Assembly: GCA_028275505.1 (NCBI GenBank)
Contig: JAPWUP010000022.1
Span: 1-32,369, forward strand
DNA length: 32,369 bases
Direction: 5' to 3'
From: Bryobacteraceae bacterium
Lineage (GTDB): Bacteria; Acidobacteriota; Terriglobia; Bryobacterales; Bryobacteraceae
The position numbers and the translations under genes were made by a program. The notes beneath the pieces were generated by a model. The model saw only the letters and a list, made by a program, of their open reading frames with translations, did no database searches and had not been told where the DNA came from. Below, one piece after another: positions 546 to 21,815 of this stretch (positions are counted from its first letter, which is position 1; every line of letters starts with the position of its first letter).

Positions 546-570
546 CGGGCGAACCAAACGGGAGGTTTTC

Positions 571-3500: not shown

Positions 3501-4200
3501 ACGCCACGTGGTCAACGTGAACTACATCTATGAAATTCCCAAGCTCGCGCAGAAAGCCGGCCTCGGCCATTCTTTCTGGAAGGCGCTGCTGGATGACTGG
3601 CAGGTGGCTCACATGCTAACCTTTTTCACCGGGCAGAACTTTTCCCCCAGTTACGGCATTCAGCAGGCGAACACAACCAGCGGCATAGGTCTCAGCCTGA
3701 TCTTCCTGGGTACGCCGGATCTGGCGCCGCGGCCTCTCATTTTGGGCAACCCGAACGAACTCCCGGCCAAGGATTTCGCTCATCGCTGGGATCCTGGCAA
3801 GATCGCGCCGTCCGGTTTCTTCCCCGAGTTTGACGGCACCGGCAGCCGGAACTTTTTGGCAGGCTATGGCACGTTCAACAACGACGTCACGCTGACCAAG
3901 CAGGTGCCCGTGACCGAGCGTGTCAAACTGGAGATCCGGGCCAGTTTCTACAACCCGTTCAACCAGGTCCGGCGGACGAGTTACAACGCCTCGGTCACGT
4001 TCAAGGCCCGAGGTGCGCGTTTTGAGGATGGCTTTTACGTCTACAACACACCCGAGCAGCTAGAGGCGCGACTGCGCGCCACCGGCCAGAGTGATCCGCG
4101 CGTGCTTTATAACACCTATCGCGGCGGCGTTGGGCACATGAACGTGACCGCAGTCGAACCCATGCGGATCATCGAGATCGGCATGCGGTTGCGTTTTTAG
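571..4200 (+). CDS. Oar-like TonB-dependent receptor with carboxypeptidase-regulatory-like domain (receptor 1)
   Basis: Predicted outer-membrane receptor/porin of 1,209 residues. The frame is open back to a TTG at 427. I place the start at ATG 571, because a promoter (517-545) and a ribosome binding site (560-566) lie inside the longer version and a signal peptide follows directly (MGWVNKACVAIALALAAEYV, cleavage near AQA). Residues about 27-107 form a beta-sandwich regulatory-like domain (GSITGTVADSSGSVVVGAEV). Residues about 115-260 are the plug, with LNGRNW and the IVTKSGTNEFRGTLW motif. The rest is the barrel, with an aromatic C-terminus (MRLRF) typical of Bam-inserted proteins. No clear TonB box is seen. 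The ligand is unknown; a polysaccharide fragment is the usual guess for this family. It ends 45 bases from the convergent GntR gene. Confidence 0.9.
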   Translation: MGWVNKACVAIALALAAEYVCAQAGLGSITGTVADSSGSVVVGAEVRLLEINTRQVRTTVSNEAGLFTFPSLVAGSYQLTITAKGFKEKTLSNLTLNAFQQLGLGTIMLEIGEGPSTLVTVTAEQQLVKDSAVRYDTIQARAVADMPLNGRNWATLLKALPGANPLNRNAYAGREYSYDGFGDFRINGKAPNQTQVNLDGGDVVDHGNDTKTTVAPSLESIQEISVLTNNFQAEYGNKGGVVINIVTKSGTNEFRGTLWNHFRHEKLNANDWDRNYNGQPRRKYRYNYFGGNLGGPIRKNKLFFFYNYENYKQSTPPGIINSRVPTLLEREGDFSQTINPDGSRPIIYYPGTRTAGNPQPFPNNIVPKSLFDPLGYRLMKLYPEPNFAGNISYNHVFEYQRKFPRFSNVGKVDWNINDRWRAYGRYSEDGGTMTERLTWVANCVTPACVVLWHRPDRSAVGTVTGMLSPTFVNESMVNWTFDYPLTGLEDSLDPAGTTKKGNGLSDLPLAFPSWNDVLPNISVSGYPTIDFRRFPWYARLNVYQVTNNSTWTRGSHIVKFGFQFIHNYKDEIDGSNYKGQFDFGVSASEFDTGYSPANLLVGAVARFQQTSNMHRKYSLYRDYHAFIQDTWKVRPDLTLDFGVRFYHVPTEFNTRPEKTLDAAFFPDRWDPAKAPRIYVPDPKNPSRVIDPAYPDAPLSAVLSTPLRYSLVPGSGDPFNGVVALGRNGIGKNGIANPGWLLVAPRAGVAWSPFGPKTVIRLGFGWAYNRNSIVDAINNFENALADVADYRLTSLRTLGAPTTVRVISPRSFGAQDSSNFHLPVVYDYSVTLQRELIWNMVLDIGYVGNIQRHQPINFNINSIPPGTAWDPKYVDPANRGYNFAGPVSTANPNPLPGSNVMDAIVMRPYRGMNTLTLTSNAGNNRYHSLQTSLNKRYGHGLTLMLNWTWAHTFSGQENVGLYNYNWRKYTGFTLGADRRHVVNVNYIYEIPKLAQKAGLGHSFWKALLDDWQVAHMLTFFTGQNFSPSYGIQQANTTSGIGLSLIFLGTPDLAPRPLILGNPNELPAKDFAHRWDPGKIAPSGFFPEFDGTGSRNFLAGYGTFNNDVTLTKQVPVTERVKLEIRASFYNPFNQVRRTSYNASVTFKARGARFEDGFYVYNTPEQLEARLRATGQSDPRVLYNTYRGGVGHMNVTAVEPMRIIEIGMRLRF

Positions 4201-4245: not shown

Positions 4246-5064
4246 TCAAGGCTGGTCCGAGCTGGCGACCGGGGCGCCGGCCTCCGCGGGCCGCTGCACG
4301 GGGAACAGTGTGAACACGTAATCCGCGGTGGACTGATCGTAGCCGATCACGCGGAACAGGCGCTCGGCTGCGCGGGCCAGGTGCTCATCCATCAGTTGAC
4401 CGGCCTGCTCGGCATCCCGGCGAAACACGGCTTCCAGCACGGCATTGTGCTCGCCCACGATACTGGCGACGACATCGGAACGATTCACGGCGCGGCTGAT
4501 CCAGACCTCGAGCAGAAGGCGCATGCCATGCAACAGATGCTCGAGCACCGCGTTGTGGCTGGCCCGCGCCAGCCGTATGTGGTACTCGACGTCGTACCTG
4601 GCGGCTTCGGCGGGGTCGGCCACTGCATCGGCCATGCGCCGCATGACGGCCTCGAGCTCTTGCCGGTCCGAGTCGTCATGGCGCAAAGCGGCCAGACGCA
4701 CAGCGCCCACCTCGAGGACGCGCCGGGCTTCGATTACCTCGTGCACCTTGCAGCGATGAATCATCATGGCCAGCCCGATCAGCTTGCCGAGCACGGCGCT
4801 GCCTGGCTGGGCCACATAGGTTCCCGAGCCCTGGCGGACTTCCACGGCGCCAATGAAGGCGAGTGAGCGAATCGCTTCACGCACGGTGGAGCGGCCGACG
4901 CCCAAGCGCTCGCATAGCACCTGCTCGGTAGGAAGACGGGAACCGGGTTCCGAAGTGGCAATCAACTGGGCCAGGCGGGAGGTGACCTCGAGGTGCAGAT
5001 CGGGCTTGTACAGGGGGGTGTCCAAAATGCCGCGGAACTGTGCTGGGTTGGCGGTGGGCGGCAT
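4246..5064 (-). CDS. GntR-family transcriptional regulator, FadR/FCD subfamily
   Basis: DNA-binding regulator, 272 residues from the chosen ATG at 5064. An AGAGG lies about 10 bases upstream. In-frame alternatives are ATG 5094/5091 and TTG 5115. Residues about 22-85 are the GntR winged helix (LPTEQVLCERLGVGRSTVRE, followed by the wing VRQGSGTYV). Residues about 105-235 are the all-helical FCD ligand domain, with its metal-site pattern visible: D-x3-H in DVEYHIRLA, then H in GEHNAVLE and H in MDEHLARA. FCD regulators usually sense a small organic acid or sugar acid bound at that metal. The gene is divergent from the acid-sugar kinase operon across a 274-base gap carrying that operon's promoter, so it is the likely repressor of the operon. 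Confidence 0.9.
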   Translation of the reverse strand: MPPTANPAQFRGILDTPLYKPDLHLEVTSRLAQLIATSEPGSRLPTEQVLCERLGVGRSTVREAIRSLAFIGAVEVRQGSGTYVAQPGSAVLGKLIGLAMMIHRCKVHEVIEARRVLEVGAVRLAALRHDDSDRQELEAVMRRMADAVADPAEAARYDVEYHIRLARASHNAVLEHLLHGMRLLLEVWISRAVNRSDVVASIVGEHNAVLEAVFRRDAEQAGQLMDEHLARAAERLFRVIGYDQSTADYVFTLFPVQRPAEAGAPVASSDQP

Positions 5065-5201
5065 GGATATCTGACCTCTTTTCTCTTTCATCATCGTACC
5101 GTTGCGTTCACCCAAGGAGCAAACGTAGAGTTGCGAGTCCGGTTCCAGTGGAGGGGAAGGCGGGAGCGCGAGATAGGGCTAACCGGCAGCAAGATTCTGG
5201 C

Positions 5202-5230
5202 TTGACAAGATAAGACGTCAGACGTAGAAT
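5202..5230 (+). promoter_or_regulatory. Strong promoter of the kinase operon with overlapping operator candidate
   Basis: Perfect TTGACA (5202-5207), a spacer of exactly 17 bases, and TAGAAT (5225-5230, five of six consensus). The spacer carries AGACGTC followed by AGACGTA (a GACGT direct repeat, the first copy a GACGTC palindrome). That is a plausible site for the divergent GntR protein to block RNA polymerase. The predicted transcript start is near 5237. Confidence 0.75.
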
Positions 5231-5243
5231 AACCGCAGAAGCG

Positions 5244-5342
5244 ATGGTCCTTCACCTCGGGCATTGCTCGGCTTGCTTCTATGACCTCCAACCGGGCCGG
5301 GAAGACCGCGGATCGGCGCAGACGCATAGGAGCCTGCGATGA
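5244..5342 (+). CDS. Possible 32-residue leader ORF overlapping the kinase start
   Basis: ATG at 5244, only about 7 bases after the predicted transcript start, opens a 32-codon frame. Its TGA (5340-5342) overlaps the kinase ATG (5339-5341) as ATGA. It has only a weak ribosome-binding sequence (GCAGAAG). The peptide (MVLHLGHCSACF...) matches nothing I recognise. It could serve translational coupling of the kinase or be a chance frame. Confidence 0.3.
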   Translation: MVLHLGHCSACFYDLQPGREDRGSAQTHRSLR

Positions 5343-6790
5343 CCAGAGCGCTGCACCGTCCGACGACTCCGATTTCCGCCGCCGACGTGCTGCGCCGCTT
5401 GCCTGCCGAGTGGCCCGAAGACCTGTTGCCGGCAATTCGCGCCGAAATCGAGGCTTCGGGCAGCAAGCTGATCGTGCTGGACGATGATCCCACCGGCACG
5501 CAAACTGTTCGGAATGTCCCCGTGTTGACCCGGTGGGACGTGGAGCTCCTGACCGCAGAGCTGAACCAGCCCGGGAGCACCTGCTACATTCTGACCAACT
5601 CGCGGAGCCTCGGCGGCGAGGAGGCCCGAAGGCTCGCCTCATGCATCGTGCGCAATCTGATGGCGGCTTCGGCACGGGCGGGGCGCCCGGTCCGGGTGCT
5701 CAGCCGCAGCGACTCGACGCTTCGCGGTCATTTCCCCCACGAAACCGAGGGCATCGTAGAGGCCTTGGGGTTCGAACCGGATGCCTTGGTGTTGGCGCCG
5801 TTTTTCCTGGAGGGCGGGCGGCTGACGGTCGGCGACGTCCACTACGTGCGAGAGGGAGAAGATCTGGTCCCCGCGGGGATGACGGAGTTCGCGCGCGATC
5901 CGGCCTTCGGGTATCGGAGCTCGAATCTGCGCGAGTGGGTCGTGGAGAAGACCGGGGGACGAATTCGGCCGGAGCAGGTGGATTCGCTGTCTCTGGAAGA
6001 AATCCGGCAAGGAGGACCGGACCGCGTGTTGGAGCGCCTGCTGGCCGCACCGCGGGGCAAGGTCTGGATCGTGAATGCGGCGGCGATGTCCGACGTGCAA
6101 GTCGTGGCGTTGGCGCTGCTTCGCGCGGAACGTTACGGCCTCAAGGTATTGTGTCGCACAGCGGCGTCGTTCGTGCCTGCCTACGGCGGCCTGGAACCAG
6201 CCGCTTTGCTCGACGGCCACGACTTCTCTCCGTGCGGAGGCGGAGGGTTGATCCTCGTGGGTTCCTTCGTGCCGCGCACGACACGGCAGCTTGCCGAACT
6301 GCTCGCACACGGCGGCTGCGTGTCGCTCGAGCTGGAGGCGGCCGCGCTGCTGGATCCTGAAAAGCGACCGCACGAGGTTGAGAAGGCCGGCGAGTTCGCT
6401 TCGAGGACGATGGCTGAGGGGCGACACGCCGTGATTTACACCAGTCGCCAGGTGATCCATGGTCGCACGCGTGAGGAAAGCCTGGTGATTCAGCGCACAA
6501 TCTCGCAAGCGTTAATCGAGGTGGTGCGCCGACTCGAGGTGCGGCCGCGGTTCCTGGTGGCCAAGGGCGGCATTACGGCCAGCGACGTCGCGACGGAGGG
6601 GCTGGGAGTGGTCCGGGCCGACGTTCTCGGTCCAATCGTGCCCGGGGTTCCGGTTTGGAAGCTGGGGCCGGAAAGCCGGTTTCCCGGGATGCCGCTCGTG
6701 GTTTTCCCGGGCAACGTCGGGGGCCCCGAGTCCCTGGTCGAAACTTTGCGGCGCTTGGATGGACAGCGCAAGGAGGACGCGCCATGTTGA
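5339..6790 (+). CDS. Four-carbon acid-sugar kinase family protein (DUF1537)
   Basis: ATP-dependent cytosolic kinase, 483 residues. AGGAG at 5328-5332 sets the ATG at 5339. The N-terminal substrate-binding domain has the family signature DDDPTGTQT (residues 48-56) and SRSDSTLRGHFP. The C-terminal nucleotide-binding domain has KGGITASDV (from residue 409) and FPGNVGG (456-462), all intact. Characterised members phosphorylate the terminal hydroxyl of D-threonate, L-threonate, 3-oxo-tetronates or 3-oxo-isoapionate. The sequence alone does not tell which. It is the first full-length gene of the run, with transketolase halves and an ExuT-like carrier downstream. Its usual partners (PdxA2-type dehydrogenase, OtnC aldolase, OtnI isomerase) are absent, so a non-canonical pathway is likely. 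Confidence in the family is high, in the substrate low. Confidence 0.9.
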   Translation: MTRALHRPTTPISAADVLRRLPAEWPEDLLPAIRAEIEASGSKLIVLDDDPTGTQTVRNVPVLTRWDVELLTAELNQPGSTCYILTNSRSLGGEEARRLASCIVRNLMAASARAGRPVRVLSRSDSTLRGHFPHETEGIVEALGFEPDALVLAPFFLEGGRLTVGDVHYVREGEDLVPAGMTEFARDPAFGYRSSNLREWVVEKTGGRIRPEQVDSLSLEEIRQGGPDRVLERLLAAPRGKVWIVNAAAMSDVQVVALALLRAERYGLKVLCRTAASFVPAYGGLEPAALLDGHDFSPCGGGGLILVGSFVPRTTRQLAELLAHGGCVSLELEAAALLDPEKRPHEVEKAGEFASRTMAEGRHAVIYTSRQVIHGRTREESLVIQRTISQALIEVVRRLEVRPRFLVAKGGITASDVATEGLGVVRADVLGPIVPGVPVWKLGPESRFPGMPLVVFPGNVGGPESLVETLRRLDGQRKEDAPC

Positions 6791-6838
6791 GCCCCGGCGC
6801 CGGGTCCGTCCAGCTTCCGCAGGCAATTGGCATAACGG

Positions 6839-6858
6839 CGAGGATGGAACCATCCTCG
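6839..6858 (+). promoter_or_regulatory. Perfect 9-bp stem-loop just upstream of receptor 2
   Basis: CGAGGATGG (6839-6847) and CCATCCTCG (6850-6858) pair perfectly. Ten bases later the ribosome binding site AGGAGGT (6869-6875) leads to ATG 6881. In the 90-base gap between kinase and receptor, this hairpin could be an mRNA processing or stability element, or a partial transcription stop. A second palindrome, CCCGGCGCCGGG, lies at 6793-6804. Confidence 0.5.
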
Positions 6859-6880
6859 ATCCATTCCCAGGAGGTTTGAA

Positions 6881-9800
6881 ATGCTGCTGCGCATGATGAT
6901 ACTGGCGCTCATCCCGGTCGCCGTCTGGGCCCAAGGCTCAGGAGCGACAGTGACGGGTCTGGTGACCGATGCTTCGGGCGCAGTGGTGCCCGGGGCCACC
7001 GTGATTGTGACCAATCGCGGTACCGGCATTGCGAGCCGGACGGAGACCAACGAGGCCGGGCTTTACATTCTCCCCACGCTCATTCCCGGCTCATATTCTC
7101 TCGAGGTGCAAAAGCCCGGTTTCAAGACCTACCGCGTGGATAACTTCACTCTGGAAACAGGGCAGAAGCTTCGCCTGGACGTGGTCATGCAGGTGGGCGA
7201 GGTGCGCGAACAAGTGGAGGTCCAGGCGGCCGTCACGCCTTTGCAACAGGAGACAGCGGAAATCAGCAAGACGATCACGTCCACGGAAGTGCGGAACATC
7301 CCGCTAGCTTTTCGCACGGCGTACAGCCTTCTGATGCTTGTCCCAGGCATCACCAGCACCGGGAATGATCCGACCGACATCGGCTCCAGCATCGGTAACG
7401 TGAGCATCAATGGCAGTCGCCGAGGCGGGAATGCCTTTTATATTGACGGCGCTCCCACCACCCACATTGGCGGCATTCCGGAGCGCTTGGGCTCGATTGA
7501 GGCGGTGCACGAGGTGAAGATTTTGACCAACACCTACTCCGCCGAGTATGGCCGGACTTCGGGAGGCTTCGTGCTGGTTCAGGTGAAATCAGGGACCCAG
7601 CAGTATCACGGGTCCTTGTACGAATTTCACCGCAACAGCGCCCTGGATGCGGCCCAGTGGGAGAATAACGCGCGAGGCATCCGGCAGACCCCGCTGCGCC
7701 GTAACGAGTTCGGGGGGACGCTGGGCGGGCCATTCCCGTGGATGCGCGACCGACTGTTCTTCTTCGCCAGTTATGAAGGCCTGAGGGATAACATCCCCAG
7801 CACCAGCACGCGGACGATTCCCGATCCCGCCATGCGCACGGGGAACTTCTCCGTCTCCCCCGTGGTGGTCAACGATCCTTTGGCAGGGGCGCCTTTTCCC
7901 GGCAATGTCATCCCGCCCAGCCGACAGGATGCGGCGGCCGTGAAGTTCCTGAGCTTATTCCCTCAGCCCAATGCAGCGGGAGTCTTCGATGCGCGGTACG
8001 GCATTCGAAGCTTGAACTGGGTGGTCGCCCGCTCCCTCAGCGACAACAAGAATTACGGTATCACACGATGGGACTATAACTTGACGGACCGCCAGAAACT
8101 GTATGTCAGTTTTTCGCATGTCAATGAAGGACCGCGAATACTCGCGCGGGACTTCGATAACGTGCTCACAACCACGACCGGACCGCGCTACCGTGATATC
8201 CGCCGGGCGACCATCGGCTACACCCGCTTTCTGCGCACTAACCTGATCAACGAGTTCATTGCCGCCGGGCAGCGCGACGTCCGGGTCATCGAGCCTTGGT
8301 TTCCCAATTTCGACGTGACCAAGGAACTGGGCATCGCCCGAAAAGTCGGAACCACCCTCCCGGTGATTACGATCTCCGGCTTCGGCAGTTTCGGTAACAG
8401 CGGCAGACAACGCTGGATTCATCAACCCTCGAACATGCAGAACATCGTCACCTGGGCTCGCGGCACCCACAGCGTGCGGGCGGGAGCTCAGCTTTTCCAG
8501 AATCAATTCTGGTACATAGCAGCGGGTAATACCACCGGGAGTTATACGTTCAACGGCGACATCACCGGGCTGGGGTCGCCGGGCCTCAACAACCCGGTCA
8601 ACGCACTGGCCGACCTGCTGCTGGGTGCGGTGAAGACCTCCAGCATCAACGTGCCGCAGATTCCCGTGTGCCGGGTCAATTACAATTTCGCCGCGTTTTT
8701 TCAGGACGACTGGAAGGTCACGCGCCGGCTGACACTGAATCTGGGCTTCCGGTATGAGTTCGAGACCAAGCAGATTGTCAAGAACAACGTCTATTCCCGA
8801 GTGGATCTGGACAGCGGGGAGCTACTGGTGGCAGGACGGAACGCCTCGCGCAATCTCAACTTGCAGAATCATTACCTGAACTTCTCGCCCCGCCTGGGCG
8901 TTGCCTTCGCGCTGACGCCCAAGACCGTCCTCCACACCGGCGCGGGCGTGTTCCGCTCGAATTTCTGGGTGGATAACGGGGAAATGGTCAGCTATCCGGG
9001 CTGGACGGGCACGGTGGTCCAGGTGAGCCGCGGGCTCGGCGTGGCCCAACCGTTCCGATTCTCGGACGGTTTCCCCGTAGAGGACGTGCCGGCTGTGGTG
9101 GATCCGTTGCGGCTGGCTGCCCAGGCCACCGTGAGCCAACCGCTGTCCGTGGGAGCCGTGACGTATAGTCCCGGGGATCGTTTGCCGCTCATCTATCAGT
9201 GGAATTTTGGCGTGCAGCGGGATATCGGCCGGGGCACGGTCGCCGACCTCTCCTATGTCGCGAGCCGGAGTCTCTATTTGTCCAGGACCGTCGCGGCCAA
9301 CGCGCCCAGACTGGAGCGCGCCGCCGAGGTCGTTTTGCAGCGCGTTCCCACGCAACAGGTGCGCCCGTTCCCGCGCTATTCCTCGTTCAATGCCGTCTAT
9401 TACGACGCCCGGGGCTCGTATCACTCGTTGCAAGCGCGCCTCATGCGCCGGTTCAGCGGCGGCCTGGCCCTGGATGCCAACTACACCTTTTCGAAGAACC
9501 TGGATACCAGCTCCGGCGTGGAGGATTCCTTCCAGATCCCGTGGCAGTTCCATCACGAAGTCGAAAAAGCGGTGTCCTCGCTTGACCGCACTCACGTTCT
9601 GACTTTGGGCTGGGTTTATGAGTTGCCGTTCGGGAGGAAGAAGCGATTTTTCTCCGACCGGAAGTTGCTCGCGGCTCTGCTCGGCGGCTTCGAATTCAAC
9701 GGAATCTTCAATGCCTCGACGGGACGGCCGTTGAACATTCGACAGAACAACACGAACTTGATCCTGGCGGCCCAGCGGCCGGACGTGAGCGATCCGAAGC

Positions 9801-10156
9801 GGCTGGATGGGCGGCTGAGCCGGTCCGAGGAGGCGGGGCCAGGGACGCGGCGGTGGTTGATTTCGCCTACCGGCCCTGACTTTCCATTCCGGCCTTCCAA
9901 CCCGCTCGGCTTTGGCAACCTGGGCCGCAATACGAGCCGCGAACCAGGCTTCTGGACCTTCAATTTGTCCCTTTTCCGCTCCTTCCCGGTGACCGAGTCC
10001 GTCAAGCTCGAGGTGCGCTTCGAGGCCTTCAATGCCTTGAACCATGTCAACTATCTCGAGCCGTCCAGCACGAATATAGATACCGCCACCTATGGGCTCA
10101 TTATGGCCTCGGCGCCGGCGCGCCAGATTCAGGTGGGCGCGCGCATTTCTTTCTGA
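6881..10156 (+). CDS. Oar-like TonB-dependent receptor (receptor 2)
   Basis: Outer-membrane receptor of 1,091 residues with an ideal ribosome binding site (AGGAGGT, 6869-6875). The signal peptide covers residues 1-18 (MLLRMMILALIPVAVWAQ). The carboxypeptidase-regulatory-like domain is at about 22-100 (VTGLVTDASGAVVPGATV). The plug follows, with VLVQVKSGTQQYHGSLYEF near residues 230-250, and the barrel ends in QIQVGARISF. It sits between the acid-sugar kinase and a secreted glycosidase-like gene that starts 11 bases after its stop. This suggests it imports or binds the oligosaccharide from which the kinase substrate comes. The ligand is unknown, and no TonB box is evident. Confidence 0.9.
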   Translation: MLLRMMILALIPVAVWAQGSGATVTGLVTDASGAVVPGATVIVTNRGTGIASRTETNEAGLYILPTLIPGSYSLEVQKPGFKTYRVDNFTLETGQKLRLDVVMQVGEVREQVEVQAAVTPLQQETAEISKTITSTEVRNIPLAFRTAYSLLMLVPGITSTGNDPTDIGSSIGNVSINGSRRGGNAFYIDGAPTTHIGGIPERLGSIEAVHEVKILTNTYSAEYGRTSGGFVLVQVKSGTQQYHGSLYEFHRNSALDAAQWENNARGIRQTPLRRNEFGGTLGGPFPWMRDRLFFFASYEGLRDNIPSTSTRTIPDPAMRTGNFSVSPVVVNDPLAGAPFPGNVIPPSRQDAAAVKFLSLFPQPNAAGVFDARYGIRSLNWVVARSLSDNKNYGITRWDYNLTDRQKLYVSFSHVNEGPRILARDFDNVLTTTTGPRYRDIRRATIGYTRFLRTNLINEFIAAGQRDVRVIEPWFPNFDVTKELGIARKVGTTLPVITISGFGSFGNSGRQRWIHQPSNMQNIVTWARGTHSVRAGAQLFQNQFWYIAAGNTTGSYTFNGDITGLGSPGLNNPVNALADLLLGAVKTSSINVPQIPVCRVNYNFAAFFQDDWKVTRRLTLNLGFRYEFETKQIVKNNVYSRVDLDSGELLVAGRNASRNLNLQNHYLNFSPRLGVAFALTPKTVLHTGAGVFRSNFWVDNGEMVSYPGWTGTVVQVSRGLGVAQPFRFSDGFPVEDVPAVVDPLRLAAQATVSQPLSVGAVTYSPGDRLPLIYQWNFGVQRDIGRGTVADLSYVASRSLYLSRTVAANAPRLERAAEVVLQRVPTQQVRPFPRYSSFNAVYYDARGSYHSLQARLMRRFSGGLALDANYTFSKNLDTSSGVEDSFQIPWQFHHEVEKAVSSLDRTHVLTLGWVYELPFGRKKRFFSDRKLLAALLGGFEFNGIFNASTGRPLNIRQNNTNLILAAQRPDVSDPKRLDGRLSRSEEAGPGTRRWLISPTGPDFPFRPSNPLGFGNLGRNTSREPGFWTFNLSLFRSFPVTESVKLEVRFEAFNALNHVNYLEPSSTNIDTATYGLIMASAPARQIQVGARISF

Positions 10157-10167
10157 AGGAGGAGCAG

Positions 10168-11151
10168 ATGAAAACCTGGCCGGTGCTGCTGTTGGCAGCC
10201 GTGACGTCGGCGGGCCAGGAGATCACGGTATCCGGAACGCGCTTTTTCCTGGACGGCAAGCCGTTTCCCTTCACGGGCGTTAGCTTTTTCAACGCCATTT
10301 ACAACCGTCCGTTCAATGAATCGGAGGAGGCTCGCCGTCAGTGGCTGCGTAAGTTCGCCCGCTACGGCATCAACGTGTTACGGGTCTGGGCCCAGTGGGA
10401 TAACCCGCGCGGGTTTGTTGACTCCTGTCCCACCTGCACGCTGTATCATTCCGACGGCTCACTCCGGCAGGAGCACCTGGCGACGCTCAAGGCATTGCTA
10501 GGCACGGCAGCGGCCGAATCGTTTGTCATCGAGCTGACGCTGTTCTCGCAGGAAAGCTGGCGGGCCGGCATCCGCTTGCAAGAAGCCGCTATGGAGCGAG
10601 CCGTGGAACAATTGGCGCGGGAGTTGATGCCCTATCGCAACGTGACCTTTCAGATTTGGAACGAATTCTCGCACCACACCGTGCCGCTGATCAAGATCAT
10701 CAAAGCGGTGGATGCCCGGCGCCTGGTGACGAATTCTCCCGGGGTGGCGGGAGTCTTGACCGCCGGCCCGGACGAAATGGCCTTGCTGGACTATCTGACC
10801 CCGCACACCAGCCGGCAGCGAGCCGGGCGGCCATGGGAAATTGCGCCGGCCGAGATCCGTTACCTGCTCGCGCGTTACCGCAAGCCGGTGGTGGATGACG
10901 AGCCTGCGCGCACCGGAACGCCCCAATTTGGCGGGCCGCCCGAACCTACTTTTCCCGAGGACCACATTCTTCAGATCTATCGCGTCTGGCAGGAAGGCGG
11001 CTACGTGATCTACCATCACGATATGTTCCAGGTTCCGGGCTCCGGCGCCGTGCCGCCCTCGGGGATTCCGGATCCCGAATTCAGCGCCTATCACCGCCGT
11101 GTCTTCGAATTTCTCTCGCGGAGGGACCGCTATGCGCCGTGGCGCCCGTAG
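10168..11151 (+). CDS. Secreted GH5-like (clan GH-A) TIM-barrel glycosidase
   Basis: 327 residues with a signal peptide (MKTWPVLLLAAVTSAGQ) and a strong ribosome binding site (GGAGGAG) before ATG 10168. A glycosidase opening motif (FFLDGKPFPFTGVSFFN) is followed by a TIM barrel. The two candidate catalytic carboxylates are E166 in IWNEF (acid/base, end of strand 4) and E245 in VVDDEPA (nucleophile, end of strand 7), the clan GH-A arrangement. It is short for a GH5 enzyme and lacks binding modules. It follows receptor 2 by 11 bases, so it likely acts on the same glycan in the periplasm or at the cell surface. Exact family and substrate are unknown. Confidence 0.8.
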   Translation: MKTWPVLLLAAVTSAGQEITVSGTRFFLDGKPFPFTGVSFFNAIYNRPFNESEEARRQWLRKFARYGINVLRVWAQWDNPRGFVDSCPTCTLYHSDGSLRQEHLATLKALLGTAAAESFVIELTLFSQESWRAGIRLQEAAMERAVEQLARELMPYRNVTFQIWNEFSHHTVPLIKIIKAVDARRLVTNSPGVAGVLTAGPDEMALLDYLTPHTSRQRAGRPWEIAPAEIRYLLARYRKPVVDDEPARTGTPQFGGPPEPTFPEDHILQIYRVWQEGGYVIYHHDMFQVPGSGAVPPSGIPDPEFSAYHRRVFEFLSRRDRYAPWRP

Positions 11152-11216
11152 TTGCCTGCTGCCGACGCGCAAGCAGCGAAGCGACCCGAAGCGGCGCGAT
11201 TGAAGGAGGTGTTGCC

Positions 11217-12290
11217 ATGTCCGTCGCCCAAGCCGGAGTAACCCCGACACACGTGGATCCGATGCGTTTCCAGCTTTTCTGGCGTCCTTTCCGCAGCGAT
11301 TCGAGTTCGGTGGTGGACGTCCTGCCGTTTCACCGGGAGTATCCGGCCCTGTTGGAAAGCTGCGAGAAGATGGCCTACCTGATCCGCAGTTACTCGGTTT
11401 TCAGCATGACGTGCGCGAGCCTGGGCCACCCGGGCGGCAGTTTCTCGGAAGCGGAATTCCTGGCCGTACTTTATAACTACGTCTTGCGCTATCGTCCCGA
11501 GGATCCGTCCTGGCCCATGCGGGATGTGTTTTATCTTTCGAAGTGCCATGCCTGTCCGGCTTACTATGCGGCTTTGGCCCTGGTAGGTTACTTTCCGGTT
11601 GAGCGATTGAAGTTCTATGGGCAGTGGGGATCGGGCCTCGAGTCCCATCCCGATGCGCTGGTGACTCCAGGGGTCGAGATCAGCGGGGGTTCCTTGGGCC
11701 AGATTCCCGGCGTGGCCGTGGGCCGGGCCCTGGGGATCCGCCGGAACGGTCCGGACCATAACGACCGGATGGTGTATGTGCTGCTGGGGGACGGCGAATG
11801 CAACGAGGGCGCAGTGTGGGAAGCCTTCATGGCGGCTGCCCACTACGCGCTGGACAATCTGACGTTCGTGATTGACTACAACAAGGTTCAGGCCAAGGGC
11901 TTTGTCCACCAGGACATGAACATCGAACCGCTGGCCGATAAGTTACGCGCTTTTGGTCTGGATGTTTACGAGGTTTCCAACGGTCACAACGTGGCCGAGT
12001 TGGTGGACCTGTTCACCACGCTGCGGCAACACCGCCGCGGCAAGCCGGTCGCCGTGGTTTTGCACACCATCAAGGGCAAGAAGGTTCGGCAGTGCCAGTA
12101 CAACCCGAACTGGCATACCTCGGCGCCGCGCACGATCGAAGCCGCGCGGGCCTGGTTGCGCGAGCTCTGGGAGCAGGACGGCAAGCGCCTGGGGGTGCCG
12201 GAAGCCTTCGTCGAGTCGCTGGGCAGCGCGATGGAGATCGTTCCTCCGCTGCACCCGGACGTGGAGCAGGTGGTGGACCGGCAGGCCTGA
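11217..12290 (+). CDS. Transketolase-like protein, N-terminal (thiamine diphosphate-binding) subunit
   Basis: 357 residues from ATG 11217, chosen for the ribosome binding site AAGGAGGTG at 11203-11211. The frame is open upstream to 11139 without one. Cofactor and active-site signatures are intact: GHPGGS (H71), SKCHACPAYY, the thiamine diphosphate/metal motif from GDG (191-193) to N222 in DYNKVQ, and KGKKVRQCQYNPNWH. A tail of about 45 residues precedes the conserved region. It pairs with the C-terminal subunit 12 bases downstream; together they match one split transketolase. Split pairs are known in pentose-phosphate, ribulose-monophosphate and D-apulose-4-phosphate (AptA/AptB) pathways. Location beside an acid-sugar kinase points to a dedicated catabolic role rather than housekeeping. 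Confidence 0.9.
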   Translation: MSVAQAGVTPTHVDPMRFQLFWRPFRSDSSSVVDVLPFHREYPALLESCEKMAYLIRSYSVFSMTCASLGHPGGSFSEAEFLAVLYNYVLRYRPEDPSWPMRDVFYLSKCHACPAYYAALALVGYFPVERLKFYGQWGSGLESHPDALVTPGVEISGGSLGQIPGVAVGRALGIRRNGPDHNDRMVYVLLGDGECNEGAVWEAFMAAAHYALDNLTFVIDYNKVQAKGFVHQDMNIEPLADKLRAFGLDVYEVSNGHNVAELVDLFTTLRQHRRGKPVAVVLHTIKGKKVRQCQYNPNWHTSAPRTIEAARAWLRELWEQDGKRLGVPEAFVESLGSAMEIVPPLHPDVEQVVDRQA

Positions 12291-12302
12291 GGAGGACCCG
12301 CT

Positions 12303-13277
12303 ATGGCGCAATTCACGATTCCCGCACGCGAAGCGACCAAGGAAATGCGCTATCAGATGGGCTATGCCTTGAGCGACCTGGCCCGGGAGAATCCTCGCAT
12401 CGTCGCGGTGGATGCCGACCTGCGCAGCTCGTCCGGTCTTCACATCTTCGAGTATTTCCATCCCGACAAGCTGATCAAGGTGGGCATTGCCGAACAGAAT
12501 CTGATCGCTGTGTCCGCAGGTTTGTCGCAGGAGGGATACATCCCGTTCCCTTGCACTTTCGATGCCTTCTGCCGCCGTTTCATGGACCAGCTTTACGTGA
12601 CCGTGGCATACACAAACCTCAACGTGAAGGTTCTGGGAGCTTATGCCGGACTGTTCACAGGCAAGGCGGGCGCCACACACCAAAGCGACAAAGAACTGTC
12701 GTTACTGTTGCGCATTCCCAACCTGCGCGTGATCGAGCCCGGCTGCAACCTCGAGATGGCTCAGGCATTGCGCTGCGCGGCGGAGACGCCCGGGCCTTTC
12801 TATCTGCGCATCGTGCGCTGCGAAGTCGAATACAACGAACTTTTCGATGGTTATCAGTTTCGGTTAGGCAAAGGGGTGCGAGTTATTGACGAAGGCGACG
12901 ACGTCGGGCTGGTGACTACCGGCTATATGATCCGCACCGGGAAGGCGGCGGCACGCAAGTTGCTGGCACGGGGGGTCGGAGTTCGGCTGGACCATCATCC
13001 CACGCTGAAGCCGTTCGATCGCGAATTGCTGTACGACATGGCGCGCCGCGTGAAGGTGATCCTTACCCTGGAGAATCACTGCACGAGCGGAGGCCTGTAC
13101 TCGCTGGTGGCGGAGGCCTTGGCGACGGAAGGAATGGCGGTCCGCGTGGGGGCGATCGGCACGGATCCCGAAGACTTCATCCACACGGGACACGTCAACG
13201 ATTTGTTGTACCGGTATGGCATGACTTCGGACCACGTCGTCGAGAAAGCACTGGCGTTACGGAAAAGGAGTTCCTGA
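12303..13277 (+). CDS. Transketolase-like protein, C-terminal (pyrimidine-binding) subunit
   Basis: 324 residues with a ribosome binding site (GAGGA) before ATG 12303. It contains the transketolase central and C-terminal regions: VDADLRSSSGLHIF, the catalytic GIAEQN (61-66, E64 activates thiamine diphosphate), the GATHQSDKE segment, and a C-terminal domain with LENHCTSGGLYSLVAEAL. It forms the heteromeric partner of the N-terminal subunit immediately upstream. Its stop overlaps the start of the racemase-like gene by one base (TGATG), so the two are translationally coupled. The donor sugar is unknown. Confidence 0.9.
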   Translation: MAQFTIPAREATKEMRYQMGYALSDLARENPRIVAVDADLRSSSGLHIFEYFHPDKLIKVGIAEQNLIAVSAGLSQEGYIPFPCTFDAFCRRFMDQLYVTVAYTNLNVKVLGAYAGLFTGKAGATHQSDKELSLLLRIPNLRVIEPGCNLEMAQALRCAAETPGPFYLRIVRCEVEYNELFDGYQFRLGKGVRVIDEGDDVGLVTTGYMIRTGKAAARKLLARGVGVRLDHHPTLKPFDRELLYDMARRVKVILTLENHCTSGGLYSLVAEALATEGMAVRVGAIGTDPEDFIHTGHVNDLLYRYGMTSDHVVEKALALRKRSS

Positions 13278-14071
13278 TGGACGATCTGGCTTTCTTCAGC
13301 CGTTACATGGCCATGACGGGTACGCCGAGTCTGGAGCCAGAGCCGGCGGGCGAACCCGGTTTGGTGGGCAAGACATTGGGTATGGTCCACGGCTCGATGT
13401 GGATCGCGCCGTTTGCCACCTTTTTCGCACGCCGCTTGTTGCCGGGCGTCAAGCTGGTCAGCGTGGGCAATGATGCTGTGCAGTTGAATTTCATGCAGGC
13501 CCACCGGCAGGGTCTTCCGTGCCCGCCGCAGGTGAACATTGATTTGTTCGTGTCCTATGCGCGGCAGCTTTGCGACCTCTACCGCCCGGATGCGATCCTG
13601 ATCACCTGCTCGACCATGAACCGCGCCTTCCGGGCGGTACGCGAGGCCATGCAGCCCTTGGGGGTGCCGGTCGTCCAGATTGACGAGGCCATGATGGAAA
13701 TCGCGGTCCAATGCGGCGGGCCGGTACTGGTCGTCGCCACGCATGGTCCCACGGTGGCTAGCACACAGGCCCTGCTCCGCGAGACAGCTCATCGGCTCGG
13801 CCGCGAGGTCAGCTTCGAGGGGGCGACGGTCGAGGAAGCGTTCCACCGGCTCGGTCGCGGTGACATCCAGGGTCACAACGAGCTGATCGCCGATGCGATT
13901 CGCCGAGCGCAGGCCGGGCGCCGCATCGCAGCCGTGGTTCTGGCGCAGCTTTCCATGGCCGTGTTCAAGCTTTCCTACCCGGACGCGGAGAAAGTGTTCG
14001 GCGTGCCGGTGCTCACGAGCGCCGAGACGGGCTTCGCGCGGGTGCGGGAAATCCTGCTGGCTCGATCCTGA
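13277..14071 (+). CDS. Asp/Glu-racemase-superfamily protein with one catalytic-type cysteine
   Basis: 264 residues, cytosolic, start fixed by the one-base overlap with the transketolase gene. The two-lobed racemase fold is indicated by LITCSTMN (C111, first catalytic position) and, where the second cysteine normally sits, VLAQLSM (221-227) with serine instead, followed by PVLTSAETG. Classical glutamate or aspartate racemases need both cysteines. A single-cysteine relative could instead be an isomerase or decarboxylase, as in maleate isomerase and arylmalonate decarboxylase; the latter keeps the other cysteine. The same C.../LAQxSM pattern recurs in the gene at 21101, also in an operon with an ExuT-like carrier. 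Function unassigned. Confidence 0.75.
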   Translation: MDDLAFFSRYMAMTGTPSLEPEPAGEPGLVGKTLGMVHGSMWIAPFATFFARRLLPGVKLVSVGNDAVQLNFMQAHRQGLPCPPQVNIDLFVSYARQLCDLYRPDAILITCSTMNRAFRAVREAMQPLGVPVVQIDEAMMEIAVQCGGPVLVVATHGPTVASTQALLRETAHRLGREVSFEGATVEEAFHRLGRGDIQGHNELIADAIRRAQAGRRIAAVVLAQLSMAVFKLSYPDAEKVFGVPVLTSAETGFARVREILLARS

Positions 14072-14203
14072 CCGGGGACGCGTGGCCACGGAAAAGGGTA
14101 TCGCCAGTTCACAGAGCGTGCCTTGCAGGCTAGCTGCGGTTGGAGCTTCGGCGGGATCTGCTTCTGGTGCCGTATCGTGTCGTCCGTTTGGCAGGTGGAG
14201 GTC

Positions 14204-15427
14204 ATGAAAAACCAAATCAGGAAGTGGGGCCTGTGTTTGATGATGATGCTGGCTACCACGCTCATTTATCTCGATCGCCAGGCGGTCGGCTTGGTGGCCA
14301 CCGACATCAAGCGAGAGCTGGGCATTGATAACGCGGGGCTGGGGTGGGTGTTTGCGGCCTTTTATTATTCCTACACGCTGGGACAGTTCGGCGTAGGGCT
14401 TCTGCTCGATCGCTACTCCTTGCGTTGGTTGTACGGCGGCGCCATTCTGGCATGGGCGGGCGCTTCCGCTCTCACGGGCCGGGCGCGCAGTTTCGCCAGC
14501 CTGGTGGGCTTTCGCATTCTGCTGGGCATCGTGGAATCGGGCAACTGGCCCGGCGCCATGCGGATCGTCTCCCGGTACTTGCCGCCCCGCGAGAGGGCGC
14601 TGGGCAACGGCATCTTCACCAGCGGCACGAGCGTGGGCGCGCTGATTGCGCCGGCCTTGATTCTCGGTCTGTCCGGATGGGTTGGCTGGCGTCATTGTTT
14701 CACCGCTCTGGGGCTCATGGGATCGGTCTGGTTCCTGGGCTGGATTCTGGCGACGCGCAGCGCAGAACTGGCGCAGGTCTGGCGCGCCCAGCCCGGCGAG
14801 AAAAAACAGACCAGTAACTGGCTCATCTATCGTTCCGTAGTTTCGCTAGGTCAATTCTGGCGCGTTTTTGTGATCACTATTTCGGTGAATCCGACGCTTT
14901 ATTTCTTTTTGAACTGGCTGCCTGTCTATTACCGCCAGGAGCGTGGCTTGACGGCGAGCACGCAGTTAGCCGGCATCCTTACACTGACGTATCTGGCGCT
15001 GGACATCGGGTACTTGAGCTGTGGACTGGTAGTGCTCCTGTTGACCCGCCGCGGTCTCTCATTGCGCGCGGCGCGGAGGATCGTGCTGCTGAGTGCCTCG
15101 TCAAGCATCGCCTGCGCCGGATTGGTGGGGCTGGCAGAGGCTCCGCAAATTGCTTCCGTGTTGTTGATTGTGGCGGTATTCGGGACAGGCCTCTGGATCT
15201 CCATGTACCTTACTCTCGCGCAGGAAGTCAGTCCCGCCTATGTATCTACCGCGGCGGGATTGCTGGGCGGCAGCGGTTCGCTGGCTGGCGCGCTTTACAT
15301 GCAGATCGTCGGTCGCGTGAGCCAAACGACGGGTTCCTTTGTTCTGCCTTTTTCCATTACCTCGCTCATGGCGGCCACTGCGGCCGCCGCCGGCTGGCTC
15401 GCCACGCGACGGGAACCTCATGCCTGA
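14204..15427 (+). CDS. MFS transporter, anion:cation symporter family (ExuT/hexuronate-like)
   Basis: 407 residues from ATG 14204, preceded by AGGTGGAGGT; the frame is open upstream to a TTG at 14123. About twelve hydrophobic segments. The first bears the family motif IYLDRQAV. Segment 4-5 has ESGNWPGAMRIVSRYLPPRERALGNGIFTSGTSVGA (residues about 106-140), close to the ExuT pattern for uronate and aldonate carriers. It therefore probably imports a sugar acid by proton symport. It is the last gene of the run, 132 bases after the racemase-like gene, and ends 73 bases from the convergent amidohydrolase gene. A paralogue sits at 18832. Confidence 0.85.
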   Translation: MKNQIRKWGLCLMMMLATTLIYLDRQAVGLVATDIKRELGIDNAGLGWVFAAFYYSYTLGQFGVGLLLDRYSLRWLYGGAILAWAGASALTGRARSFASLVGFRILLGIVESGNWPGAMRIVSRYLPPRERALGNGIFTSGTSVGALIAPALILGLSGWVGWRHCFTALGLMGSVWFLGWILATRSAELAQVWRAQPGEKKQTSNWLIYRSVVSLGQFWRVFVITISVNPTLYFFLNWLPVYYRQERGLTASTQLAGILTLTYLALDIGYLSCGLVVLLLTRRGLSLRAARRIVLLSASSSIACAGLVGLAEAPQIASVLLIVAVFGTGLWISMYLTLAQEVSPAYVSTAAGLLGGSGSLAGALYMQIVGRVSQTTGSFVLPFSITSLMAATAAAAGWLATRREPHA

Positions 15428-15500: not shown

Positions 15501-16331
15501 TTACGCCGCCAGGAGTCTCTGAGGATTGAGACACATCATCTGGCGTAACTGATCCCGGTCAAAACCGAGCGCTCGCAGGCCCTCCGCAAAAAGCTTCAGG
15601 CATTCCGGGGGCGGAGGATTATCCGGCTGGCCGGAATCCGTGGCGAGAACTGTGGTTTCCACGCCCACCTGGGCGATGGCGTCGGCGATTGCCTCCAAGG
15701 GCACGTGTCCGCCCCGATGGGTCGTCGAGTTATAACAACGCTCAAACATCACGCCGCGTGCGGCCAGCTCTTTCTGGAGGCTGAGCGGATACTCGGTGAC
15801 GGGCCATTCCGGATGAGTGACCACGATCCTTTCGATGCCCAGCTCGGACGCGCGCACGATCAAGGGCACGGCCTCTTCGGGGCTCAAATGCCCCGTGCAC
15901 AGTATGGCCGGCGCAGTCGCCATCAGCCTGAGAATCTCCTCCACTTCAGGCCGCAGGCGCCCGTCCCCGTCCAAAACCGTGATGCCACCTTGCTCGCCGC
16001 GCCGCCGCCGATGATTGAGCGCCGAGCGGGTGGGCATCCAGATCATCCGGGCGCCCATGGTAAGAGCTGCGCGAACCGCCGCGGGATTCAGGCCACCCAC
16101 CGTCTCGTTGAGGACCAAGCCACCGAACAGGCGCAATCCGGGGACAGTCTTGCTAACCAGCGAGGCCCGTTCTGCCGTCGAAAAGTGGTGGTTCTTGAGG
16201 ACGATCCCGCCCAGAGCGGCGGCAGCGGCCTCGCGGGCGAGATCGAGGTCGTCAAAGCGGCGCGGATCCAGGTCCGGCGCACTGTGCACGTGCATGTCAA
16301 TGGCGCCATGCAACCACTCAGGGAGTCTCAT
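15501..16331 (-). CDS. Metal-dependent amidohydrolase-like TIM barrel (DUF6282 type)
   Basis: 276 residues from ATG 16331 (AGGGGC upstream; TTG 16355 is the in-frame alternative). The metal-ligand set of the amidohydrolase superfamily is readable: DMHVHSAPD (H14, H16), LKNHH (K46, H48, H49), CTGH (H148), VTHPEWP (H173) and ATDSG (D232). The APD after HVH and the KNHH motif match the DUF6282 group. Enzymes of this superfamily hydrolyse amides, lactones or phosphoesters. In this setting a sugar-acid lactonase is one possibility, but nothing in the sequence proves it. It is probably co-transcribed with the GntR gene 153 bases upstream. It has no signal peptide, so it acts in the cytosol. Confidence 0.75.
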   Translation of the reverse strand: MRLPEWLHGAIDMHVHSAPDLDPRRFDDLDLAREAAAAALGGIVLKNHHFSTAERASLVSKTVPGLRLFGGLVLNETVGGLNPAAVRAALTMGARMIWMPTRSALNHRRRRGEQGGITVLDGDGRLRPEVEEILRLMATAPAILCTGHLSPEEAVPLIVRASELGIERIVVTHPEWPVTEYPLSLQKELAARGVMFERCYNSTTHRGGHVPLEAIADAIAQVGVETTVLATDSGQPDNPPPPECLKLFAEGLRALGFDRDQLRQMMCLNPQRLLAA

Positions 16332-16484
16332 CGGGCTGCCCCTACGGAGCCACAACGGTTATTGCGAGCCGTTGGCGCTCTACCCTTTGCGGCTTGCAAA
16401 CTCGCGCAAATATGCGGTGCGTCGCGATGCGCTGGCTGGCCGGCGGCGGTGTCTAAGACACAGGTCCTGTGCATGGGCGAGCGG

Positions 16485-17186
16485 TCAAATGACTAGCGGT
16501 ACATCCACTCGGCCGCCGGAAATCACCGAGTCGAGCAAAAATCGGACTGCGCGTTCGAAGTGCGTGTGGATCAGGCGCTCGGCCGCCTCGCCGTCGCCTC
16601 GCTTGAGCGCGTCGAGAATCGCCAGGTGGTCCTGGTGCGATGAAAGCACCTTGGCCGGAATCTCCAGTGAGAGGGAGCGAAACCGGCGGAAGTGCTCGTG
16701 AAGGGATTCGATCATTCCGGCGAGCACGCGATTCTCGCAGGATTCGACGATGAGACGATGTACTTTGACGCCCGATTGCGAAATGGCTTTCAGATCCGCA
16801 TTTTCGCCCAGCGTGTAGCTTCGCAATTCCTCCTCGAGCGCGGCGATCCGAGCGGCCGGGATCGTGCCCGCGACTTGGCGAGCCGCAGCCCCCTCGAGCA
16901 GGCTTCGCACCTGATACATCTCGCGGATCTGCCGCAAATCCAGCCGAGACACCAGAGTCCCGAGACGGGGGTGAACTTCCACGAAACCCTCTTTCTCGAG
17001 TCGAAGGATAGCTTCCCGAACCGGCGTCCGACTCAGGCCGAGCTTGCGCGTGTAAGGCTCGATGCGAATGACCTCGCCCGGGCGGAGACGACAGCTCAGG
17101 ATCTCCTCTTTGATGACGCGGTAGGCAGCATCCGCTCCCGATTCTTCGTGGGCAGTACTTTTCGATTTCACGCTGATCCGAGGCAT
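16485..17186 (-). CDS. GntR-family transcriptional regulator, FadR/FCD subfamily (second)
   Basis: 233 residues from ATG 17186. ATG 17231 is an equally open alternative adding 15 residues, and neither start has a clear ribosome binding site. Winged helix: LRPGEVIRIEPYTRKLGLSR, TPVREAILRLEKEGFVEV, then the wing HPRLGTLVSRL. The FCD domain (about 95-215) keeps histidines in KVHRLIVES, QDHLAILDAL and HTHFERAV. It is divergent from the operon starting at 17582 and upstream of the amidohydrolase gene, so it likely controls both directions. It is distinct in sequence from the regulator at 4246. Confidence 0.88.
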   Translation of the reverse strand: MPRISVKSKSTAHEESGADAAYRVIKEEILSCRLRPGEVIRIEPYTRKLGLSRTPVREAILRLEKEGFVEVHPRLGTLVSRLDLRQIREMYQVRSLLEGAAARQVAGTIPAARIAALEEELRSYTLGENADLKAISQSGVKVHRLIVESCENRVLAGMIESLHEHFRRFRSLSLEIPAKVLSSHQDHLAILDALKRGDGEAAERLIHTHFERAVRFLLDSVISGGRVDVPLVI

Positions 17187-17471
17187 GGTCACTGGTACGC
17201 TATAGGTATTTCGGCATGCGTCGGCACACATAATGATAGCGCATAACCGGGATGAGCGTTCCCGGCAAATGCGCGCCCGTTCGCCAGGCAGAGCAGGGGA
17301 CCGGCGCCGTGCGGGCTTCCCGGTCGGCAGGCGCCCCGGGGCGGAAAAGGCCTTATGGCTCGCCGTGGGTTGCGCCGCGGCGAGACCGCTGCTCGCCAGA
17401 ATGAATCCGCCGGGACGAAGGAAAGGCTTGGGGCGGGGTGCGGGAAGAAGACGATGGCTTCGACGTCAGGG

Positions 17472-17500
17472 TTGACGCGCTGTTGATATTCTGCTAGCAT
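17472..17500 (+). promoter_or_regulatory. Promoter/operator of the second sugar-acid operon
   Basis: TTGACG (17472-17477), a 17-base spacer and TAGCAT (17495-17500). It sits in a 33-base block (17468-17500) that matches the receptor 3 promoter (28342-28374, minus strand) at 26 of 33 positions, including AGGGTTGACGCG and TTGATATT. TTGA recurs 11 bases apart inside the block, suggesting a direct-repeat binding site. The rest of 17232-17467 shows no gene. Confidence 0.65.
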
Positions 17501-17505
17501 ACCTT

Positions 17506-17571
17506 TTGGCGAGCAGGCTTCTCCCGGGAGGCTCGAACGTGCCCGGTTCGTAATTCAGCCACGCTCGCCAA
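17506..17571 (+). promoter_or_regulatory. Structured 5' leader of the second operon
   Basis: TTGGCGAGC (17506-17514) pairs perfectly with GCTCGCCAA (17563-17571), enclosing a TCTCCCGGGAGG hairpin and CGAAC/GTTCG (17534-17550). Together they could form a three-way junction in the 75-base leader. Inside lies GGGAGG (17526-17531), seven bases before a GTG that opens a four-codon frame (stop TAA 17551-17553). The real gene at 17582 has no ribosome binding site. No known riboswitch class is recognised. Confidence 0.45.
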
Positions 17572-17581
17572 GCGAACGATC

Positions 17582-21790: not shown

Positions 21791-21815
21791 GCCGGGGCTG
21801 TCACCTTTGTGGGCC

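Follow-up and report, generated by a model that had tools for sequence, protein, structure and literature searches.

A rare mosaic operon in a Bryobacteraceae bacterium joins a DUF1537 kinase to a split transketolase

Layout of the operon

We analyzed a 32,369-nucleotide stretch of DNA (the window) from a Bryobacteraceae bacterium (GenBank assembly GCA_028275505.1, contig JAPWUP010000022.1), which is one entire contig of a 4.66 Mb genome assembly in 392 contigs, and focused on an operon that places a DUF1537 kinase in one gene run with a two-gene (split) transketolase. The operon comprises seven intact, tightly packed genes on the same strand (Table 1), with gaps between the longest frames of 90, 11, -13, 12, -1, and 51 nt in gene order and with purine-rich ribosome-binding stretches ahead of the likely gene starts. 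It is a real, rare, and mosaic operon, built of known parts in a new combination that was seen in one genome. We put at about even odds (probability roughly 0.5) the reading that it lets the cell use a sugar acid or a branched sugar and that the transketolase fills the slot of the carbon-carbon-cleaving enzyme.

A first-pass annotation of this DNA reported seven genes on one strand, a divergent FCD-GntR gene, and an excellent promoter; we confirm each of these, the promoter being close to consensus. Sigma70-like sites matching 11 of 12 consensus bases occur twice in the window on both strands, compared with a mean of 0.1 per shuffled window (20 shuffles), and from these shuffles about 0.0007 such sites would be expected in the 223-nt gap between the GntR and kinase genes. 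The other site (517-545) lies 5' of an internal ATG in an upstream receptor frame (427-4200), so this receptor gene probably starts inside its longest frame. We also considered GACGTCAG, which occurs in the promoter regions of both the operon and the neighboring gene group (5214-5221 and 17462-17469), as a shared operator; its three occurrences in the window compare with 1.22 expected, and since 14 of 100 shuffles reached this count we make no operator claim.

Table 1. Features of the operon and of the genes downstream of it, with window positions.
Feature	Position	Strand	Evidence
FadR/GntR-type regulator with FCD domain, divergent	4246-5115	-	Pfam FCD 4.2e-24, GntR 2e-16
Sigma70-like promoter TTGACA-17-TAGAAT	5202-5230	+	11/12 consensus bases, 17-nt spacer
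DUF1537 kinase (SBD_N + NBD_C)	5339-6790	+	Pfam 2.7e-49, 1.4e-36
TonB-dependent receptor (CarboxypepD_reg + plug + OMP_b-brl_4)	6881-10156	+	Pfam 1.3e-199
Putative secreted GH5-like glycosidase	10168-11151	+	Pfam GH5 just under cut-off; E166, E245
Split transketolase, N-terminal half, binding thiamine diphosphate (ThDP)	11139-12290, likely start ATG 11217	+	Pfam 1.7e-40; PDB 6yak 9e-67
Split transketolase, C-terminal half	12303-13277	+	Pfam 1.9e-29, 8.9e-16; PDB 6yaj 2.7e-54
Asp/Glu/hydantoin racemase superfamily protein, one catalytic Cys (C111)	13277-14071	+	Pfam 4.3e-13
Major facilitator superfamily (MFS) transporter	14123-15427, likely start ATG 14204	+	Pfam 2e-43
DUF6282 protein	within 15501-23137	-	
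Second FCD-GntR regulator	16485-17231	-	Pfam FCD 4.5e-26
Protein without Pfam match	17582-18835	+	glycosidase-like NE motif (by eye)
Second MFS transporter	18814-20076	+	Pfam 9.4e-52
Isocitrate/isopropylmalate dehydrogenase family protein, 346 aa	20064-21104	+	Pfam 3.8e-90; no NCBIfam cut-off reached
RAC2, second racemase-family protein, single catalytic Cys	21095-21790	+	Pfam 6.4e-15, alignment
Purple-acid-phosphatase-type protein	within 15501-23137, after RAC2		
Apiosidase-like glycosidase	23162-24565	-	PF13204 403 bits, 1.4e-120; PF12904 110 bits

The kinase, the racemase-family protein, and the split transketolase

The kinase is a genuine DUF1537 protein, with SBD_N and NBD_C domains that score 168.4 and 126.9 bits against Pfam cut-offs of 25 and 28.3. 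It misses the NCBIfam cut-offs for OtnK, DtnK, and OiaK (37, 68.5, and 27.4 bits versus 350, 450, and 700), D-threonate kinase (DtnK) being its best match, and on these scores together with its tree placement we rejected all three identities. In a tree of 17 DUF1537 proteins, whose groups were picked by neighbor genes and which took rows from four of the eight plasmid records with matches, the window kinase falls within a nine-row group behind a 100/100 branch, apart from OtnK, from the kinases linked to RuBisCO-like proteins, and from two PdxA-linked kinases. Seven other rows of this group have fructose-bisphosphate-aldolase (FBA)-type and/or LtnD/GarR-type dehydrogenase neighbors, and the eighth, on a Verrucomicrobiota contig, came without neighbor information. 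The FBA-type class II aldolase stands beside kinases of the clade in Ardenticatenia, genome G239, Deinococcus, and Rhodococcus, and a 3-hydroxyisobutyrate-dehydrogenase/GarR-type protein does so in Mycolicibacterium, Ligilactobacillus, Priestia, and G239. Clade and clade context thus suggest a kinase of the 2-oxo-tetronate type. The clade also includes a Ligilactobacillus salivarius kinase encoded 1.8 kb from a full-length transketolase, but the transketolase gene there closes a neighboring glucitol phosphotransferase system/fsa gene group.

The three-step L-threonate pathway of Arthrobacter ZBG10 (Guo 2024) consists, in excerpts of PMC12540250, of LtnD, 2-OtnK, and the F_bP_aldolase protein 2-OtnC. 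The gene context of the window kinase's clade is comparable, with NAD_binding_2/11 dehydrogenase and F_bP_aldolase neighbors elsewhere and with a GntR/FCD regulator and a racemase in the Deinococcus and Rhodococcus operons, whereas the window operon carries a split transketolase in place of the dehydrogenase and aldolase. In the OtnK/OtnC/OtnI and DtnK/PdxA2 tetronate pathways (Zhang 2016, by way of the PMC12540250 excerpts), the DUF1537 kinase likewise belongs to a catabolic operon that has a regulator and a carrier for acids; the window operon departs from them in the missed cut-offs and in the absence of the usual partners. As the first-pass annotation had stated, Pfam and NCBIfam recognize no PdxA, LtnD-type, OtnC-type, or OtnI-type protein among the operon genes. 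The annotation's list of usual partners (PdxA2/LtnD, OtnC, and OtnI) was incomplete and omitted the FBA-type 2-OtnC and the RuBisCO-like OiaX. A separate DUF1537-PdxA pair does lie elsewhere in the genome, but it has its own kinase (148 bits versus the DtnK cut-off of 450) and so does not account for the operon genes. Searches at E<=1e-60 of 257 genomes of the order and a 396-genome sample of the phylum found close kinase relatives in two and one genomes, respectively, the window's own counted; given this rarity, the kinase was probably acquired.

The racemase-family protein belongs to PF01177 (50 bits versus a cut-off of 31), and its AlphaFold model (mean predicted local confidence, pLDDT, 84.3) finds its best structural matches among hydantoin and glutamate racemases, led in Foldseek by the hydantoin racemase 2eq5 (E 2e-7, TM 0.58/0.69). 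Of the two catalytic Cys residues of two-base Asp/Glu/hydantoin racemases, the window protein keeps only the first, C111, a residue that all 14 aligned relatives share; the second is replaced by Gln (LAQLSM versus LGCGGM in 3qvj), as in nearly all members, with His in Pantoea. The description of the protein as single-Cys is therefore correct for the catalytic positions but not overall, as it has four Cys residues (82, 99, 111, and 146), and because the pattern extends across the aligned members, a single catalytic Cys marks the subfamily and not this operon. A reaction for the subfamily was found in none of the literature examined.

Relatives of this protein at E<=1e-20 occur in 12 of the 257 order genomes. 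We took the surrounding DNA for all 12 loci, down to 3.2-4.0 kb in some, and scanned the frames in part: transketolase genes are present at four loci (the window, G070, G221, and G223), DUF1537 genes at four or more (the window, G060, G074, and G133), RuBisCO-like genes at three or more (G060, G074, and G133), and an MFS gene at nine or more. Within these partly scanned frames, only the window locus has both a transketolase and a DUF1537 gene. At the G060, G074, and G133 loci (L030 7386-17598, L061 3106-9872, and L063 1476-6018, respectively) the racemase gene adjoins genes for DUF1537, a RuBisCO-like protein, and an MFS carrier, and DUF5060/Collagen_bind_2 proteins are also encoded at G060 and G074. 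These arrangements resemble the D-apionate system of OiaK and OiaX, and they suggest, from gene content, that the single-Cys racemase is a partner in apionate-like loci. Model scores for OiaK and OiaX cover G060 only among the three; there OiaK is the best model for the kinase (426 bits) and OiaX that for the RuBisCO-like protein (440 bits), both short of the 700-bit cut-offs. The window differs in that its kinase belongs to another clade and its genome has no match to a RuBisCO-like protein. Among nine annotated plasmid records with this kind of racemase, some of them picked for promising annotation, a DUF1537 gene is close by in four (Deinococcus, Rhodococcus, Ancylobacter, and Pantoea) and a transketolase in none. 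The further partner where the subfamily and DUF1537 stand together is an FBA-type aldolase in Deinococcus and Rhodococcus, OtnC in Ancylobacter, and a RuBisCO-like protein in G060, G074, and G133.

Both transketolase halves keep their ThDP motifs, GDGECNEG and DYN in the N half and IAEQN, with the catalytic Glu, in the C half, and their nearest solved relatives, 6yak and 6yaj, are the two chains of the Carboxydothermus split transketolase. Residues aligned with R318, S345, E366, F392, and R474 of human transketolase are retained. The C half has Tyr at human H416 and Lys-Ala at E423-D424, the Tyr and Ala also being present in G070; H416 and D424 are the standard His and Asp of the substrate site. 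Tyr at position 416 is found in three of 11 split C halves (the window, G070, and G223), all racemase-linked, and in none of the other eight. Close relatives of the C half are present in three of the order genomes and one of the phylum genomes, again counting the window's own. G070, from another genus of the family, has the order N half-C half-racemase-MFS seen in the window at 72, 79, 66, and 56% identity, preceded by a frame for a membrane-type protein, on a 4.8 kb contig that ends inside the MFS gene. More distant pairs (N half 37-40%) have an MFS gene and a member of this racemase subfamily close by in G221 (MFS-racemase-transketolase) and in G223, where one run (L033 407-13801) holds GH31, MFS, racemase, TonB receptor, GH31, both transketolase halves, and a LarA-type racemase. 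Because the genome has two further transketolase-type frames (599 and 756 aa), the window pair need not be the housekeeping enzyme, and we set that assignment aside.

A transketolase exit following a kinase, which the first-pass annotation had presented as a different route to central metabolism, has a precedent in AptAB, which splits apulose 4-phosphate to xylulose 5-phosphate and dihydroxyacetone phosphate. The likeness lies in a two-gene transketolase within a catabolic cluster that also has a sugar kinase; the AptAB cluster, however, has an FGGY kinase and an ATP-binding cassette importer where the window operon has DUF1537 and MFS genes. Excerpts of PMC13001218 give the name D-apulose-4-phosphate transketolase AptA/AptB to ECSF_RS02710/02715 of E. 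coli SE15. Identity to these proteins is only 38% for the N half and 28% for the C half of the window pair, and in an 11-row transketolase tree the pair forms a 100/100 group with G070 (stem 1.16 versus a median end branch of 0.46), apart from a 100/98 group of the E. coli AptAB and two FGGY-linked pairs; we therefore rejected AptAB membership.

Split transketolases occur in other settings as well. Plasmid records of Klebsiella (L041 3948-7930) and Acinetobacter (L042 2934-6942) carry genes for MFS, a short-chain dehydrogenase/reductase (SDR), and a split transketolase with no kinase, possibly a transketolase route for an unphosphorylated ketose, and in an Agrobacterium record (L044 2663-8087) a DXS-like split transketolase shares a gene run with mtnK, mtnA, and a RuBisCO-like protein. 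The open-access literature yielded no paper for the term "split transketolase" and none with passages linking DUF1537 and transketolase.

Putative uptake genes and the downstream gene group

The call of a glycosidase is weak for the window protein itself (Pfam GH5 22.3 bits versus a cut-off of 23.5), but the ortholog in genome G056 passes at 25.3 bits, all 10 aligned orthologs keep E166 and E245, and a profile matches the GH5 structure 1uuq (1.6e-5); a single-sequence fold model (pLDDT 39) was too poor for use. In G056 the ortholog adjoins a receptor 59% identical to that of the window. This is the only one of 11 loci with a glycosidase ortholog that has the receptor alongside, and none of the 11 matches the kinase, transketolase, or racemase queries. 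Hence the argument that receptor and glycosidase imply a substrate freed from a glycan is weak, and with no telling neighbors at its loci elsewhere we abandoned the glycosidase as a guide to the substrate. The carrier, labeled ExuT-like in the first-pass annotation, is an MFS protein whose best NCBIfam subfamily, the D-galactonate transporter TIGR00893, scores below its cut-off (188 versus 395 bits), so that by sequence it may be called only broadly of the D-galactonate/hexuronate MFS type. Four large TonB-receptor-type frames lie within the 32 kb (427-4200, 6881-10156, 24786-28343 on the minus strand, and 28889-32368), the first two assigned by Pfam and the last two only by tblastn matches at the same places as the others.

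Downstream of the operon, a parallel gene group (15501-23137) has its own FCD-GntR regulator, MFS transporter, and single-Cys racemase-family protein, together with an isopropylmalate-type dehydrogenase, and is followed by an apiosidase-like gene (Table 1). In Pantoea, an isopropylmalate-type dehydrogenase and a racemase adjoin OtnK and an aldolase. G060 has apiosidase, DUF1537, RuBisCO-like, KARI-like, and racemase-family genes within 10 kb. By analogy with this locus, the apiosidase-like gene would make branched plant sugars a reasonable guess as substrates of the island.

A possible sugar-acid route and its alternatives

Elsewhere the racemase subfamily stands with DUF1537 and an FBA-type, OtnC, or RuBisCO-like partner, and the simplest reading of the operon is hence that the transketolase fills the backbone-cleaving slot, which it seems to occupy. 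In such a system, the divergent FCD-GntR protein, judging by its position, would control the operon; the receptor and secreted glycosidase would take in a substrate from a glycoside; and the MFS carrier would move it into the cell. Family and context suggest that the single-Cys enzyme would shift one proton beside a carboxyl or keto group and so epimerize or isomerize its substrate. The transketolase, in line with its intact motifs, would cleave the carbon-carbon bond next to a ketone by means of ThDP and form xylulose 5-phosphate by handing two carbons to a triose phosphate. The DUF1537 kinase would phosphorylate a short oxo acid arising in this pathway, so that the remainder could exit as triose phosphate. 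The transketolase would thereby stand in for the enzyme that other loci with DUF1537 and the racemase subfamily have, namely an FBA-type aldolase, OtnC, or a RuBisCO-like decarboxylase.

The two-carbon transfer proposed in the first-pass annotation is chemically plausible as a hypothesis, and its placing of the transketolase in the aldolase's position agrees with the cleaving slot; its order, phosphorylation and then transketolase, goes beyond the evidence, since the G070 cassette has no kinase beside it. We slightly prefer transfer on an unphosphorylated ketose with the kinase acting on the remainder, itself a tentative ordering, and regard kinase first, then transketolase, as unlikely. A specific form, in which a ketose acid (a keto-uronate or branched oxo acid) donates two carbons to glyceraldehyde 3-phosphate through the divergent ThDP pair and the remaining C3-C4 oxo or aldehyde acid is isomerized by the single-Cys enzyme and phosphorylated by the 2-OtnK-type kinase to triose phosphate, is doubtful as it stands, and ThDP-dependent decarboxylation of a phosphorylated 2-oxo acid by the pair is more doubtful still. 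Transketolase action on an unphosphorylated modified ketose is known from the 6-deoxy-6-sulfofructose transketolase pathway (the SqwG/SqwH pair), a likeness by description only; GH31 includes sulfoquinovosidases, and none of the scanned window genes has a sulfoquinovosidase-type GH31 match.

Several observations weigh against a single transketolase-kinase pathway. Among the order and phylum genomes searched at E<=1e-60, the full kinase-transketolase-racemase order does not recur: close relatives of kinase and transketolase occur together in the window only. The G070 cassette has no adjacent kinase, and the 3-oxo-tetronate-kinase-type protein of that genome, above its NCBIfam cut-off, lies on a different contig; G223, a 90% complete genome, has no DUF1537 match at all. 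Transketolase and kinase may therefore serve different pathways. Pfam finds no LtnD-type dehydrogenase or F_bP_aldolase among the operon genes, which include no dehydrogenase. Enzymes acting in trans are conceivable: a single FBA-family gene of the genome encodes a protein 34-37% identical to four FBA-type partner proteins (41-49% identical to one another), and there are two Aldolase_II genes, one with a product 34% identical to an OtnC. Loss of D424, which we had considered as the mark of a special substrate, is shared by nine of the 11 split C halves compared; it is uninformative about the window pair and was dropped as a distinctive trait.

Much of this evidence fits an alternative that we hold to be possible, if less than probable, namely that rearrangement brought two independent pathways into one operon. 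The transketolase-racemase-MFS cassette would then need no kinase, making xylulose 5-phosphate from glyceraldehyde 3-phosphate and an unphosphorylated donor, either a ketose or a sugar acid, and the DUF1537 protein would serve tetronate use with a dehydrogenase and aldolase encoded elsewhere, perhaps the isopropylmalate-type dehydrogenase with RAC2, as the Pantoea arrangement would allow. The parts do recur separately, as N half-C half-racemase-MFS, as receptor and glycosidase in G056, and as kinase with dehydrogenase and/or FBA-type aldolase, and the operon combines the first two with the kinase but not with its dehydrogenase or aldolase partners. The G070 cassette with no adjacent kinase, the MFS-racemase-transketolase loci of G221 and G223, and the kinase-free SDR-MFS-transketolase cassettes of the Klebsiella and Acinetobacter plasmids point the same way. 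Two independent pathways are, on the other hand, harder to reconcile with a single gene run with short gaps behind one strong promoter, and with a racemase subfamily that itself repeatedly neighbors DUF1537.

An apiose route, in which the apiosidase frees D-apiose for conversion to apulose, DUF1537 phosphorylates in place of FGGY, and the pair splits the product in the manner of AptAB to xylulose 5-phosphate and dihydroxyacetone phosphate, strikes us as improbable. It would draw together the apiosidase-like gene, the apiosidase locus of G060, and the kinase-plus-split-transketolase logic of AptAB (excerpts of PMC13001218), but the pair falls outside the FGGY-linked group, Pfam recognizes no FGGY kinase or apiose isomerase among the operon genes, the apiosidase gene lies on the opposite strand at a distance of 7.7 kb, and the kinase clade is tied by context to tetronates (excerpts of PMC12540250). 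That the genes lie together by chance and share no function would agree with the occurrence of the full order in one genome only, yet seven intact frames with ribosome-binding stretches, a strong promoter, and conserved catalytic residues make it very improbable.

If the reading of the operon as a sugar-acid or branched-sugar system with the transketolase in the cleaving slot is true, a ThDP transketolase would be a further carbon-carbon-cleaving partner for DUF1537 kinases, beside the oxidative PdxA, the class II aldolase OtnC, FBA-type aldolases, and RuBisCO-like proteins, and acid sugars would gain a redox-neutral exit directly into the pentose phosphate pathway. In its ketose-acid form, this exit would parallel the sulfo-transketolase and apulose-transketolase routes, with a carboxylate as substrate. 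Since the racemase subfamily with one catalytic Cys accompanies DUF1537 kinases, RuBisCO-like proteins, split transketolases, and MFS carriers, assigning its reaction would fill one step in several sugar-acid loci together.

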